From: Akkermansiaceae bacterium
GTDB taxonomy: Bacteria; Verrucomicrobiota; Verrucomicrobiia; Verrucomicrobiales; Akkermansiaceae
Direction: 5' to 3'
NCBI GenBank assembly: GCA_025354565.1
Contig: JANXMQ010000246.1
Span: 1-53,283 of the forward strand
DNA: 53,283 nt
Numbering within the stretch: position 1 is the stretch's first letter; each line of letters begins with the position of its first letter. Position numbers and translations under genes: made by a program. Below are positions 28,409-32,547 of this stretch, piece by piece. A model generated the notes under the pieces. The model saw only the letters and a list, made by a program, of their open reading frames with translations. It made no database searches and was not told where the DNA came from.

Positions 28409-28927
28409 TCAAATTGTCAAAGTCTCCCCGCAGCGATCCGCTTTCACGCGGGGGATGCTCTTTCCTGCGCTGTAATCGATCAGACCCATACGTGCGAGTT
28501 GGAGAATGTCGGTCTGCCGATTCGGGTAGTCGGTGATTGCCTGCCATTTATTGGCCGCACGAAGAACCGCCAGTGTATCGGCCAATTTGGATTCCAGCCG
28601 GGAATTGTCCGGCAGCATGCTCGCGATGAGCGTATTCACACGAAACAATAACAACGGGCCTGCTAGAAATAATTGGCTGAGCACGTGAGCCGTGCCTGTG
28701 ACACGGTGGACGTAATGATTCACCACAATGGCTCCTGCCGTTTCCTCTCCCAGATCATGATATAAGCCTGACTCGTGATCAAGTGCCGGGAGTCCACACG
28801 CCCCGACTTTCGGAGAAGCCTCGTGCGGAATAAATTCCGCTCCGCTTGCTGCAAGACTTGCCGGGAGGCGTGACAGCGCTAGAAAAGGGCCGTGGCGCAG
28901 CAAAGTGATGTCCGGGAAGTCCTCCAA
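28409..28927 (-). CDS. Hypothetical protein
   Basis: A 172-residue frame with a plausible globular product: HDLGEETAGAIVVNHYVHRV, QLFLAGPLLLFRVNTLIASM, LADTLAVLRAANKWQAITDY. The start region (28892-28927) overlaps the start of the divergent N-acetyltransferase gene, so a later start is possible. It is coupled to the small membrane protein downstream. No family recognised. Confidence 0.5.
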   Translation of the reverse strand: MEDFPDITLLRHGPFLALSRLPASLAASGAEFIPHEASPKVGACGLPALDHESGLYHDLGEETAGAIVVNHYVHRVTGTAHVLSQLFLAGPLLLFRVNTLIASMLPDNSRLESKLADTLAVLRAANKWQAITDYPNRQTDILQLARMGLIDYSAGKSIPRVKADRCGETLTI

Positions 28928-29974
28928 TACATTCCGCAGTTTCGTGGGAAAATTTTCCTCGTGCTCATCGAGGCTGGATTGCTGCCGGAACCGGCGGTGG
29001 CGGAAACCCTGCTGGACTTGGCAGTGTTGGAAGACCTCGGCGTGAAACTGGTGCTCGGCGTGCTGGGCGGCGATTTGAAGGATCTCTACGATTGGACGCT
29101 GGAGTGCGAAATCATGGCCGCCCGGGTTTCGCGCCCGATTTCGGACCCGCTGGCAGTCCCCGAGGCGATGGAAATTCTAGGCCGGGGCCAGTCCGTGGTC
29201 ATCGACGCGTCAGCCACCGGCCCGCTGGACAGCCCGGTCGTGGACTTCGCCCTGCGACTTGGCGTGGCGAAAATTATCACGCTATTAGAAGAGGCGATCC
29301 TCATCGACGGCGCACCCGCCCATGCCATCCGGGCGGCGGATGCGGTGGACCTCGCCGGTCAAAGCGATGCGGCGGGGTCGGCCCTATTGCTGGCGGCGGC
29401 GGCGGCCTGCCACCGTGGTGTGCCGCGCGTGCATGTGCTGAATGGTCGCCAGCAAGGGGTCTTGGTCGATGAGCTTTTCTCAAACGAAGGCGTCGGCACG
29501 ATGGTCCACGCGGACAGCTACCGGGTGATCCGTGAGCTGCGCGAGGAGGATATTCCCGAGCTGTTAGGCATGATTGGGCGTTCGGTGAGACGGACGAAAC
29601 TGGTGGCGCGGACCTATGAGGACATCCAGTCGCGGATCGAGGATTACCGGGTGATGGCCATCGATGACAACGTCGTGGGCTGCGTGGCTTTGCATGAATA
29701 TCCACAAGAAGACTGCGCCGAAGTGGCCTGCCTGTATGTGAAACTGGCGCACGAGGGCCGGGGCTACGGCATCGAGCTGGTACACCACGCGGAAGGTCTC
29801 GCACGGGAGCGCGGGATCGGGCGGGTGTTCGCCTTGAGCAACCGGGCGGCGGATTTTTTCACCACCAAACTGGACTATGAGCCTGCGACCGTGGATGATC
29901 TGCCAGTAATCCGCCGAGCACAATTCGAAGCCAGCGGTCGTGACTCGCGGGTATTTTCGCGCAGGCTGGGGTGA
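28892..29974 (+). CDS. argA: N-acetylglutamate synthase-like protein (AAK + GNAT)
   Basis: A 360-residue protein read from a GTG start. An N-terminal amino-acid-kinase-like domain (about 15-205; FRGKIFLVLIEAGLL, AVLEDLGVKLVLGVLGG, VPRVHVLNGRQQG) is followed by a GNAT domain (about 210-360) with the acetyl-CoA loop HEGRGYGIELV and ARERGIGRVFALSNRAADFF. This layout is that of bacterial ArgA, which makes N-acetylglutamate for arginine synthesis, but the kinase-like part is about 70 residues shorter than in E. coli, so arginine feedback may be altered. Fairly sure of the family, less of the exact reaction. Confidence 0.8.
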   Translation: MAQQSDVREVLQYIPQFRGKIFLVLIEAGLLPEPAVAETLLDLAVLEDLGVKLVLGVLGGDLKDLYDWTLECEIMAARVSRPISDPLAVPEAMEILGRGQSVVIDASATGPLDSPVVDFALRLGVAKIITLLEEAILIDGAPAHAIRAADAVDLAGQSDAAGSALLLAAAAACHRGVPRVHVLNGRQQGVLVDELFSNEGVGTMVHADSYRVIRELREEDIPELLGMIGRSVRRTKLVARTYEDIQSRIEDYRVMAIDDNVVGCVALHEYPQEDCAEVACLYVKLAHEGRGYGIELVHHAEGLARERGIGRVFALSNRAADFFTTKLDYEPATVDDLPVIRRAQFEASGRDSRVFSRRLG

Positions 29975-30059: not shown

Positions 30060-30323
30060 ATGGAAGTATCGAAGAAGAAAAACGCGCCGTCCCCCACGGA
30101 ATTGATCGACTGGTTAGCGGATGAAGGGGTGCTTGATCTGGAATGGGATTTTCCCGAAGACGGGGACTTGTTCGCCGCCGGGCTGGACTCGATGGCAGTG
30201 ATGCAGTTGGTCGTCGCCGTGGAAGACCGCTTCGCCGTCGAGCTAACACCCGAAGATCTGACCCGTGCGAACCTCGCCACGCCCACGACATTGGCGGCGT
30301 TGATTGGCGGAAAACTTTCGTGA
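30060..30323 (+). CDS. Acyl carrier protein (orphan)
   Basis: An 87-residue PP-binding protein. The phosphopantetheine serine is S44 in AAGLDSMAVMQLV, followed by the usual helix II and the VEDRFAVELTPEDL stretch. A four-lysine start (SKKKNAP) precedes the domain. No acyl-AMP ligase, ketosynthase or phosphopantetheinyl transferase is adjacent; instead the next gene, an FAD oxidoreductase, starts inside its stop codon (GTGA). It therefore probably carries the substrate of that oxidoreductase as a thioester; this is inference from coupling. Not the fatty-acid AcpP by context. Confidence 0.9.
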   Translation: MEVSKKKNAPSPTELIDWLADEGVLDLEWDFPEDGDLFAAGLDSMAVMQLVVAVEDRFAVELTPEDLTRANLATPTTLAALIGGKLS

Positions 30324-31519
30324 AACCGCGGGGCGAGTTCTTCGACGTTGCGGTCATCGGTGGCGGTAGCGCGGGGCTGGCGGCGGCGGTCACGGCGGCT
30401 CGGAGGGGTGCGCGGACTTTGTTGTTAGAGCGTCACGGCTACCTCGGCGGCATGGGCACGGCTTCGCTGGTGCATACGTTTTGCGGACTCTATCTGCTAC
30501 GCGAAGAACCCGGCGCGGTCTTGGCGAATCCGGGTTTCCCAGCGGAAATGGCGGGGCTGATGATCGCCGCCACCGGCCTCGGCCCGGTGCGGATGGGGCG
30601 GGTGGACGTGTTGCCGCAACACCCCGTCGAGTTCGCAAGAATCGCGGATGTCTTGGTGGCCGCCGAGCCGCAGTTAGAGCTCCGACTGCACACGGAAGTG
30701 ACGGCGATTTCCCGTGAGGAAAATTGGGCAATCCGGCTGGCGGGACGGGCGGGTTCGCTAACTGTTACTGCCGGAATGCTGGTCGATGCCTCGGGCGATG
30801 CGCTGGTCGCGACTTTGTTAGGACTTGATGCGGCCATGGCAGCGGTCCCGCGCCTGCAACGCCCGGCCTATGTCTTTGGCGTGCAAATCCCGCGACCGCT
30901 TGATGAATCGGCGCGCTTGGAAACGGCGGGACTGATCGTCGAGGGCATCCGCGCGGGCGATCTGCCGGATGCGGCGATGGGGCTGACATTCCGTGCCTCG
31001 GGCAGGCTGGGGGAAATTTTTGGCACGCTCGATCTAGCAGGTGGCGAGCTGGGCTATGATCCGTTGGATACCGCCTGCCTGACGAATCTTGAGGTCGAGG
31101 GCCGCGCGACCGCGAGCACCACGCTGGCGTGGCTGGCCGGGAAATCCGCTTGCTGGAAAAGCGGTTACATCAGCCATTGGCCGGCGCGGGTGGGAATCCG
31201 TGAGAGCCGCCGCTGGCTGGGTGAAACGGTCCTAACGGGTGCAGATTTGATAGTCGGCAGGCGTTTCGAGGAGGAAATTGCGCTGGCGACGTGGCCGATG
31301 GAATTTCGCGAATCCCCACGCGGACCCAAACTGCGTTTTCCCGAAGACAATCGTCCGGCGGGTATTCCTTTGGGGTGTCTCAAGCCCGTTGGCCTTGACC
31401 GCATTTTCGTCGCTGGGCGCTGCATTTCCACCGACCACGACGCGCAGGCATCGATCCGCGTGATGGGCACCTGTTTTGCCACCGGCGAGGCCGCTGGGCG
31501 GGCGGCGGCGGGCGGATGA
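30320..31519 (+). CDS. FAD-dependent oxidoreductase (FAD_oxidored family)
   Basis: Starts with GTG at 30320, overlapping the ACP stop by four bases; 399 residues. The dinucleotide-binding motif VIGGGSAGLAAAVTAARRGA is followed by LLLERHGYLGGMGTASLVHT, the GG-x-GT pattern of PF12831. Near the end, DRIFVAGRCISTDHDAQASI and RVMGTCFATGEAAG complete the FAD site. No signal peptide, so cytosolic. It may oxidise a substrate bound to the neighbouring carrier protein. The following dehydrogenase gene overlaps its stop (ATGA). Substrate unknown. Confidence 0.88.
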   Translation: MKPRGEFFDVAVIGGGSAGLAAAVTAARRGARTLLLERHGYLGGMGTASLVHTFCGLYLLREEPGAVLANPGFPAEMAGLMIAATGLGPVRMGRVDVLPQHPVEFARIADVLVAAEPQLELRLHTEVTAISREENWAIRLAGRAGSLTVTAGMLVDASGDALVATLLGLDAAMAAVPRLQRPAYVFGVQIPRPLDESARLETAGLIVEGIRAGDLPDAAMGLTFRASGRLGEIFGTLDLAGGELGYDPLDTACLTNLEVEGRATASTTLAWLAGKSACWKSGYISHWPARVGIRESRRWLGETVLTGADLIVGRRFEEEIALATWPMEFRESPRGPKLRFPEDNRPAGIPLGCLKPVGLDRIFVAGRCISTDHDAQASIRVMGTCFATGEAAGRAAAGG

Positions 31520-32547
31520 AGTTTTGGTGTCCTTCGGGCTTATCCGCAGTTAGCATACCCCCCCTCAGATTTATGGTAATCCATCGAATTTTCTCCGACT
31601 CGCCTTTGAGCGAAACCGCCGCCCAGATCTTGCGGGAAGGCACTGCGCCGCATGAAATCATCGTCCCTCAGAAAAAACTGTCGTCGATTTTGGCCAAGCC
31701 CGAGGCGGACCCGGCATTTTCGCTAGCAGACATTGCCTTCGGCCAACCCGACCTCGAAAGTATTGCCCGTTCCGAGTGGCTGAAATGGATTCACGTCAGC
31801 ACCGCTGGCTTCACCCGGTATGACACGTCGGAGTTCCGCGCGATGGTCGCCAAGCGCGGGTTGATCGTCACTAACAGCTCCAGTGTCTATGCCGCAGCCT
31901 GTGCGGAACATGTGTTCGCGTTCATGATGGCGCAATCCCGCCGGCTGCCGCAGTCCTTGGGCTCCCACGCCGCCACCGGCTCGTCGGAGTATTTCCAACT
32001 CCGTGGCGACTCAGTTTCCTTGCGTGGTCAGAGCGTTGTGATCCTCGGCTTCGGGGCGATTGCCGCGCATTTGGTGAAATTGCTGGCACCGTTTGAAATG
32101 GCCGTCACCGCCATGCGCCGCCAGCCACGGGGCGATGAAGGCATCCCCACCGTCACTGGGGAAAATCTAGCAGCGGCCCTTGCGACGGCGGATCACGTCA
32201 TCAACATCCTGCCCGACAACGCCGCTTCGCGAAATTTCATCGACACTACCCGACTCGCCCAGATGAAGCGCGGCGCGGTTTTCCACAACATCGGACGGGG
32301 GACTACTGTCGATCAGGATGCCTTGTTGGATTCGCTACGTTCCGGCCACCTCGCCGCCGCCTGGCTGGACGTCACCGAACCCGAACCTTTGCCTGCGGAT
32401 CATCCCCTGCGCGGCGAGCCTAACTGTTTTATCACTCCGCACATCGCCGGTGGCCACGCGGGTGAGGCGGAAACCTTGGTCCGCCATTTCCTCGCGAATT
32501 TCCAACGCTACCTTGCGGGTTCTCCGCTGCTAGATCGGGTTATGTGA
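31516..32547 (+). CDS. D-2-hydroxyacid dehydrogenase family protein
   Basis: 343 residues from the ATG overlapping the previous stop; the ATG at 31573 (19 codons later, MVIHRIFSDSPLSETA) fits the family start better and may be the true one. NAD-binding VVILGFGAIAAHLVKLLAPF, Arg in HNIGRGTTVDQDAL, Glu in WLDVTEPEPLPADHPL and His in CFITPHIAGGH form the usual R-E-H set. The glycine motif is GFGAIA rather than GxGxxG. It reduces 2-oxoacids or oxidises 2-hydroxyacids. By coupling, it should act in the same pathway as the carrier protein and FAD enzyme. Confidence 0.88.
   Translation: MKFWCPSGLSAVSIPPLRFMVIHRIFSDSPLSETAAQILREGTAPHEIIVPQKKLSSILAKPEADPAFSLADIAFGQPDLESIARSEWLKWIHVSTAGFTRYDTSEFRAMVAKRGLIVTNSSSVYAAACAEHVFAFMMAQSRRLPQSLGSHAATGSSEYFQLRGDSVSLRGQSVVILGFGAIAAHLVKLLAPFEMAVTAMRRQPRGDEGIPTVTGENLAAALATADHVINILPDNAASRNFIDTTRLAQMKRGAVFHNIGRGTTVDQDALLDSLRSGHLAAAWLDVTEPEPLPADHPLRGEPNCFITPHIAGGHAGEAETLVRHFLANFQRYLAGSPLLDRVM

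Follow-up and report, generated by a model that had tools for sequence, protein, structure and literature searches.

Flexirubin and xanthomonadin/arcuflavin are described as products of a type II, fatty-acid-like polyene assembly that is started by a ligase (PMC3949708, PMC3992019). The arcuflavin and xanthomonadin clusters include a halogenase gene, and no PF12831 protein is evident in the portions available (PMC3949708, PMC3691225). For the aryl polyene (APE) system of Escherichia coli, Table 1 of one report gives 18 ape genes with no flavoenzyme among them (PMC8253772), and an antiSMASH aryl polyene cluster appears in an account of Oceaniferula (PMC9865893). Here we consider a stretch of 53,283 nucleotides from an Akkermansiaceae bacterium (contig JANXMQ010000246.1 of assembly GCA_025354565.1), referred to below as the window, which is contig C98 of a 5.1-Mb, 257-contig genome. 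The window carries the gene of a small acyl carrier protein (ACP), called ACP2, that overlaps the gene of a flavin adenine dinucleotide (FAD)-dependent protein of the FAD_oxidored family (PF12831), called the FAD enzyme. Four kinds of observation underlie what follows: the pairing of the genes, their linkage in other lineages, their co-occurrence across genomes, and their family assignments. On this basis, the two genes are probably a module of a scattered, aryl-polyene-like polyketide pathway of the highly reducing type II kind.

A conserved ACP2-FAD gene pair and its pathway context

The original prediction described an ACP with an intact phosphopantetheine serine whose gene overlaps that of a FAD_oxidored enzyme, and both points stand. 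The serine belongs to an Asp43-Ser44 site within the PF00550 match, and the stop of the ACP2 gene and the GTG start of the FAD gene share the letters GTGA, an overlap of 4 nt (Table 1). The PF12831 match of the FAD enzyme is full-length, running from residue 9 to 397 and from position 1 to 395 of the 416 in the profile (curated cut-off 27 bits). ACP2 also matches the NCBIfam models PRK07081, DltC, and AmcB, every one below its cut-off.

A search with the FAD protein returned 50 loci, 30 of them verrucomicrobial by title and 20 others (L038-L057) at about 30% identity, and the most similar genes are found in Akkermansiaceae, Luteolibacter, Haloferula, and Prosthecobacter records. Pairing was counted over the 28 loci with a readable upstream side, that is, 27 of the 30 verrucomicrobial loci and the window, with L025, L036, and L058 left out. 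In 24 of these a same-strand ACP gene precedes the FAD gene by no more than 200 nt, and the exact 4-nt overlap recurs in 20, so that the ACP-FAD_oxidored adjacency, which the original prediction had proposed looking for in Verrucomicrobiota, is indeed conserved there. Luteolibacter pohnpeiensis (L018) and Haloferula luteola (L028) are among the cultured environmental species that carry the pair. The Asp-Ser site is present in 30/30 ACP rows from FAD-bearing genomes, 28 of which have the motif DSMA(V/I)MQ. ACP2 and the FAD enzyme are a conserved unit, beyond chance. Among the non-verrucomicrobial FAD relatives L038-L057, 0/20 gave a tblastn match to the window ACP (E<=1e-3), a search that an unrelated ACP could escape. 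The titles and abstract openings that we found hold no account of such an ACP-FAD pair, which does not prove its absence from print.

The context of the pair emerges from other lineages. Within the window, inspection by eye of the list of open reading frames (ORFs) and a scan of eight proteins revealed no ligase, ketosynthase (KS), or thioesterase next to the pair. The absence claimed by the original prediction is thus true of the window and untrue of the system, as a ligase and a KS are encoded elsewhere in the genome and stand beside the pair in some relatives. The fullest set is that of L031, a locus of a Luteolibacter metagenome-assembled genome, where 7.5 kb hold a FabZ-like dehydratase, an AMP-ligase, a KS, a KS resembling a chain-length factor (CLF), an SDR-type ketoreductase, a further carrier (ACP1), an LPG_synthase_TM protein (TM), ACP2, and the FAD enzyme. 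At L023 a PlsC acyltransferase, FabZ, ligase, KS, CLF, ACP2, and FAD genes are found together. Other loci join KS, CLF, ACP2, and FAD (L021, L210, L211) or SDR, ACP1, TM, ACP2, and FAD (L029, L122, L204), and L036 has KS, CLF, SDR, ACP1, and TM along with a truncated FAD gene; L122, L204, L210, and L211 may repeat organisms of named loci. The original prediction named as a refuting outcome that the ACP homologue always stands next to an ordinary fatty-acid or peptide-synthetase cluster, and this outcome is half seen: some ACP homologues do reside in a type II ketosynthase cluster, but not all of them, and that cluster differs from an ordinary fatty-acid one.

The modules lie apart in most close relatives of the window, and the pair there is unlinked from KS and CLF. 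The same holds in the genome under study, where the pathway genes are in four places, C98, C150, C50, and C73 (Table 1). This scattering is not just an artefact of a draft assembly, because the parts are also dispersed in the single-contig congener G312, with the FAD gene at 3.618 Mb, the CLF gene at 2.860 Mb, and the TM gene at 4.561 Mb. The KS retains its Cys-His-His motifs and the CLF is without the Cys, as read in the sequences at what we take to be the motif positions.

Co-occurrence was followed in 61 congeners, using orthologue calls at E 7.6e-51 or better for the FAD enzyme (the next value being 8.2e-29), 2.5e-70 or better for CLF, and 1.1e-49 or better for TM, with three weaker TM matches left out. 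The FAD gene is found in 18 of these genomes, CLF in 18, and TM in 16. All 14 genomes with an unfused CLF are also FAD-bearing (14/18 FAD genomes, p 1e-10) and FAD and TM coincide in 15 congeners (p 2e-10), although these p-values are only indicative, as they overstate independence because the congeners are related. TM occurs without FAD in G025, a genome that is 57% complete. In the remaining four CLF genomes (G026, G046, G047, and G054) the CLF is part of a longer open frame, 791-844 aa in length, and none is FAD-bearing; the frame is a KS-CLF fusion in the three that were fetched. This fusion variant measures 783-818 aa at L170, L125, and L126 (genomes G047, G046, and G026, respectively), loci which contain no ACP2-FAD pair, and L170 and L125 also carry GT2, PlsC, a lipid-A-type acyltransferase, and B12-binding radical SAM proteins. 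A phylum-wide sample of 288 genomes gave a FAD match at E 1e-30 in 44, and the nine best beyond the tested congeners (45-68% identity) were searched further. A CLF (37-65%) turned up in every one of the nine, as did a TM match (26-55%), although some of the TM matches, such as the one at 26% in G126, may be paralogues. A rule that a fused KS-CLF excludes the FAD gene, true in the four fused genomes of the 61 congeners, is broken by G247, G250, and G259, FAD-bearing genomes of another family that have CLF in frames of 797-858 aa.

The scheme that we infer from these parts, from the individual catalytic steps to what ACP2 carries and which way the FAD reaction runs, would be as follows. The AMP-ligase (C150) would activate an acid and load ACP2, and the FAD enzyme would oxidise or reduce the ACP2-bound acyl group. 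The KS and chain-length factor (C150) would extend the chain with units on ACP1, with the ketoreductase (C50) and FabZ-like dehydratase (C73) leaving a double bond in each round. Methyltransferase, acyltransferase, and glycosyltransferase (C73) would decorate and anchor the product, and the LPG_synthase_TM protein (C50) could possibly move it across the membrane. The likeliest role of the FAD enzyme would be to act on a thioester bound to the carrier, as the original prediction proposed. The close coupling to ACP2, the below-cut-off scores of ACP2 with DltC and AmcB, and the existence of another carrier that resembles ApeE favour the starter or an early intermediate, attached to ACP2, as the probable substrate. 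DltC and AmcB are carriers that are loaded by a ligase.

Besides the relatedness of the genomes and the possible TM paralogues, several observations weigh against this assignment. The FAD gene occurs without CLF in G020 (59% complete), G022, G023, and G052, and without TM in G022, G036, and G052. At L030 the ACP is 1.4 kb from the FAD gene, and at L033, L034, and L035, where the FAD enzyme is 40-42% identical, no ACP motif was found within 2.2 kb upstream, with an ACP-like match about 2.6 kb away at L034. In a BLAST comparison with 17 proteins of the E. coli Nissle ape cluster, the CLF, AMP-ligase, ACP2, FAD, TM, and FabZ proteins of this genome had no match at E<=1, so that the CLF failed to align with ApeC, the ligase with ApeH, and FabZ with ApeI/ApeP, and an aromatic ammonia-lyase (PF00221) was not found in the genome. 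Nor can the reaction of the FAD enzyme be taken from its fold. The AlphaFold2 model has a mean pLDDT of 93.8, and matches to sequences in the PDB mostly end at the FAD-binding segment. Among the 50 matches listed by Foldseek, flavin monooxygenases come first with query TM-scores <0.5. Among the 50 listed by VIA-align, DepH, thioredoxin reductases, a geranylgeranyl-reductase-like protein, and fumarate-reductase types all fall within about 2 Z units. Assignment of a reaction from fold is ruled out, as the matches are generic flavoprotein folds.

Alternatively, the pair may form a small pathway of its own, along the lines of the original prediction, in which the FAD enzyme would dehydrogenate a carrier-bound acyl or aminoacyl group and a free acid would be released, independently of KS and CLF. 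The separation of the pair from KS/CLF in most close relatives fits such a pathway, as do the FAD genes without CLF in 4/18 congeners, two of which (G022 and G052) are without TM as well, and the below-cut-off scores of ACP2 with the DltC and AmcB models. We nonetheless regard it as unlikely, since several lineages have the pair directly clustered with KS, CLF, and ligase genes, 14/14 congeners with an unfused CLF carry the FAD gene, and the window search recognised neither a ligase nor a thioesterase beside the pair.

If the pair does belong to a scattered polyketide pathway, genome mining based on clusters would probably miss that pathway in the genome of the window because its genes are in four places, and the ACP-FAD pair provides a handle to find it. 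Because the flavin step would be linked to just one of the two carriers, the ligase, that carrier, and the flavoenzyme also lend themselves to a joint test in vitro.

ACP2 in relatives without the FAD gene

ACP2 is found in 32/61 congeners, comprising 17/18 that are FAD-bearing and 15/43 that are FAD-less. Of the 15 FAD-less genomes, only G046 has a CLF (fused) and a weak TM match, and the 16 FAD-less ACP2 loci show no FAD gene or other clear pathway part beside the ACP. At L253 a FabF-like KS match (34%) lies about 2.4 kb from ACP2, and an RlmN-type frame follows ACP2 in about 7 of the 16 loci, although NCBIfam names it for L242 only. In a 14-row tree of the NAGS-like neighbour, an N-acetylglutamate-synthase-like protein, the FAD label needs five changes, at least two of them forced by well-supported branches, and no direction is given. 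We infer loss of the FAD gene rather than gain in the FAD-less relatives because the pair is more widely distributed.

The FAD-less copies have drifted unevenly. Asp-Ser remains in 10 of the 16, the Ser in 13, and DSMA(V/I)MQ in one, and in two FAD-less genomes the Ser has become Ala. The single intact motif, DSMAIMQ, is that of L238 in G031, a genome in which no FAD orthologue, CLF, or TM was found; the FAD gene may have been lost only very recently, may fall in a gap of the assembly, or may be replaced by some other partner. Divergence was measured against the nearest ACP of a FAD-bearing genome, with the nearest chosen on residues 10-42 and 54-85. Around the Asp-Ser site (residues 43-53), 43% of residues differ in FAD-less copies vs 7% in FAD-bearing genomes, compared with 14% vs 22% in residues 10-42 and 31% vs 24% in residues 54-85. 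Pairwise proportions of nonsynonymous (pN) and synonymous (pS) differences were taken from subsets of similar divergence, 12 FAD-less and 11 FAD-bearing. In residues 10-42 the synonymous sites are near saturation in both subsets (FAD-less pS 0.76), with a pN of 0.14 in FAD-less and 0.11 in FAD-bearing copies, and in residues 43-55 pN is 0.35 vs 0.012. Within sets of related FAD-less copies, residues 43-53 have the most changes per site (6/66 vs 3/198 in L239/240/241/243; 5/11 vs 5/33 in L244/245), and the near-copy sets L247/L248 and L251/L252 hold too few changes to tell a regional pattern.

By these comparisons constraint has relaxed on the cargo site, and slightly on the last third, and the amino-terminal half is as constrained as before. 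Simple decay of ACP2, with the uneven erosion due to recent loss of the pathway and chance, is quite possible, if somewhat short of an even prospect. Persistence of Asp-Ser in 10/16 copies and the intact motif of L238 speak for it, residues 54-85 are themselves somewhat loosened, and the near-copy sets are uninformative. Decay is harder to reconcile with the gap between 14% difference in residues 10-42 and 43% in residues 43-53, with a pN in residues 10-42 that stays near the FAD-bearing value at saturated pS, and with the concentration of changes in residues 43-53 in both informative sets. Because the site erodes and residues 10-42 stay constrained, we tentatively suggest that ACP2 may have two jobs. 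One would be as a carrier with the FAD enzyme and the scattered pathway, where the site and the helix after it (DSMAVMQ) hardly vary. The other, independent of carrier function, would fall to its first ~42 residues in relatives that have no FAD enzyme, with the site drifting and the protein ceasing to be a carrier in more than one lineage. The FAD-less relatives would amount to repeated natural experiments, in each of which the cargo site of a carrier is lost and selection maintains the rest, and carrier-independent ACP functions are therefore directly testable in them.

Neighbouring genes

The original prediction also drew the downstream D-2-hydroxyacid dehydrogenase into the unit as a translationally coupled partner, on the grounds of an ATGA overlap with the FAD gene. 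The ORF does open at 31516, but ten dehydrogenase orthologues align only from window residue 14-24 onward (an eleventh, in G034, matches in part), and in each of the ten a start codon in frame falls at window residue 20 or 21, with earlier ones as well in some. Window residue 20 is an ATG at 31573, which would put 53 nt between the two genes. For these reasons the gene probably starts at 31573, and the ATGA overlap would be an effect of ORF calling. Orthologues of the dehydrogenase (53-78% identity) are present in 12/61 congeners, this genome included, and the gene adjoins the FAD gene in none of the 18 FAD-bearing congeners but this one. Five other congeners with both genes have the dehydrogenase on a different contig, six hold it without a FAD gene, and the two gene sets overlap weakly (6/12, hypergeometric p 0.09). 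No dehydrogenase orthologue stands beside a FAD orthologue in any other genome searched. G288 (L215) has a hydroxyacid dehydrogenase (29% identity) about 0.8 kb upstream of a FAD_oxidored protein (30% identity); by these values the two are too distant for orthologues and form a look-alike pair. The dehydrogenase is ruled out as a module partner by orthologue distribution, non-adjacency, and start position. A single operon of all three window genes, in which the released product would be the substrate of the dehydrogenase, is accordingly mostly refuted and highly improbable, their shared strand, spacing of at most 53 nt, and the distant neighbours in G288 notwithstanding.

The NAGS-like gene was likewise offered as a possible member. 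Its position is as described, ending 85 nt before the start of ACP2, but membership does not hold up. A gene for a 466-aa metallo-beta-lactamase-fold protein of the beta-CASP type separates it from the ACP gene in several close relatives, and the NAGS-like gene is also present in 7/16 loci with ACP but without FAD, which makes it a syntenic neighbour rather than a module partner. Pfam detects only the GNAT half of the NAGS-like protein and full-length matches among relatives are 79-89% identical; the other half seems, from the profile matches, to be strongly diverged from known kinases. The intervening 466-aa beta-CASP protein (L011:6261-7661) scores 415 bits with the NCBIfam model for type VII CRISPR Cas14 (cut-off 800) and 307 with aCPSF1 (cut-off 580), and neither name is transferable because both scores are below cut-off. 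Elsewhere in the genome, contigs C143 (L001, L005-L007) and C236 (L003) have large frames, the longest of 2999 and 2561 aa, in which PP-binding and ketosynthase domains are predicted; by these domains they are further modular synthases.

Table 1. Positions of the ACP2-FAD pair, its neighbours in the window, and candidate pathway genes on other contigs of the same genome
Feature	Location	Strand	Assignment and remarks
ACP2, 87-aa acyl carrier protein	30060..30323	+	PF00550, E 2e-10, 41.1 bits (cut-off 20.8)
ACP2 phosphopantetheine site, Asp43-Ser44	Ser44 codon 30189-30191	+	DS within PP-binding domain
FAD_oxidored enzyme, 399 aa, GTG start	30320..31519	+	PF12831, E 1e-70, 239.6 bits
D-2-hydroxyacid dehydrogenase	31573..32547 (ORF open from 31516)	+	PF02826, E 6e-44; neighbour, judged outside module
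N-acetylglutamate-synthase-like (NAGS-like) gene	28892..29974	+	PF00583; TIGR01890 172.9 bits (cut-off 202.85); syntenic neighbour, judged outside module
AMP-ligase (PF00501), KS, CLF	C150		KS and CLF adjacent, ligase next to KS
SDR ketoreductase, ACP1, LPG_synthase_TM protein (TM)	C50		
FabZ-like dehydratase (FabA domain), PlsC acyltransferase, GT2, methyltransferase	C73		

Comparison with known systems

The system is larger than the three window genes and appears to be of a known kind, aryl-polyene-like, with the ACP-FAD module and the scattering as its new features. It shares with APE a list of parts, namely a KS with a Cys-less partner, ketoreductase, dehydratase, AMP-ligase, two ACPs, GT2, acyltransferase, and methyltransferase. 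In the BLAST comparison, the KS of this genome is 31% identical to ApeR and 33% to ApeO, the SDR 35% to ApeQ, and ACP1 37% to ApeE, with GT2 reaching 40% to ApeJ over 245 aa (E 5e-51) and PlsC 28% to ApeD (E 1e-13). The methyltransferase matches ApeB at E 0.06 at best. From other genomes, the AMP-ligase of G047 is 24% identical to ApeH, and the ACP2 of L031 matches ApeE at only E 0.003. The ape genes of E. coli form one cluster, whereas their counterparts in the genome of the window are scattered over four contigs and are clustered in some relatives only. The Verrucomicrobia pathway also adds a FAD enzyme whose gene overlaps one of the ACP genes, as well as the LPG_synthase_TM protein. As we use it, the aryl-polyene-like label describes the biosynthetic genes, with LolA-like, RND/MMPL, and DUF3261 transport genes lying outside the comparison, and we do not call this a proven APE pathway.

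A second likeness is to the type II polyketide synthase of ishigamide, whose KS/CLF structures are 6KXD-6KXF. The KS of this genome matches 6kxd_A (E 2e-60), and a moderate model of the L023 CLF (pLDDT 69.9, built on four sequences) matches the ishigamide CLF 6kxf_B with a TM-score by target of 0.71 at 20% identity. The CLF model also matches ketosynthases and the actinorhodin CLF, and the likeness is unspecific, as FabF-type structures match KS/CLF equally well or better. We know of no FAD partner for a highly reducing type II polyketide synthase of the ishigamide type. Towards flexirubin, the SDR scores with the FlxB model, below cut-off, and the flexirubin, xanthomonadin, and arcuflavin systems differ in that this genome is without an aromatic ammonia-lyase. 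Halogenases of the arcuflavin/xanthomonadin kind are flavin-dependent.

For the flavin step itself, the nearest parallels are PltE and RedW, carrier-bound prolyl oxidases that are acyl-CoA-dehydrogenase-like flavoenzymes. The FAD enzyme differs from these in belonging to PF12831. The likeness, held here as a working idea, would be one of logic, in which a small carrier is charged by a ligase and its cargo is oxidised by a flavoenzyme ahead of chain extension.

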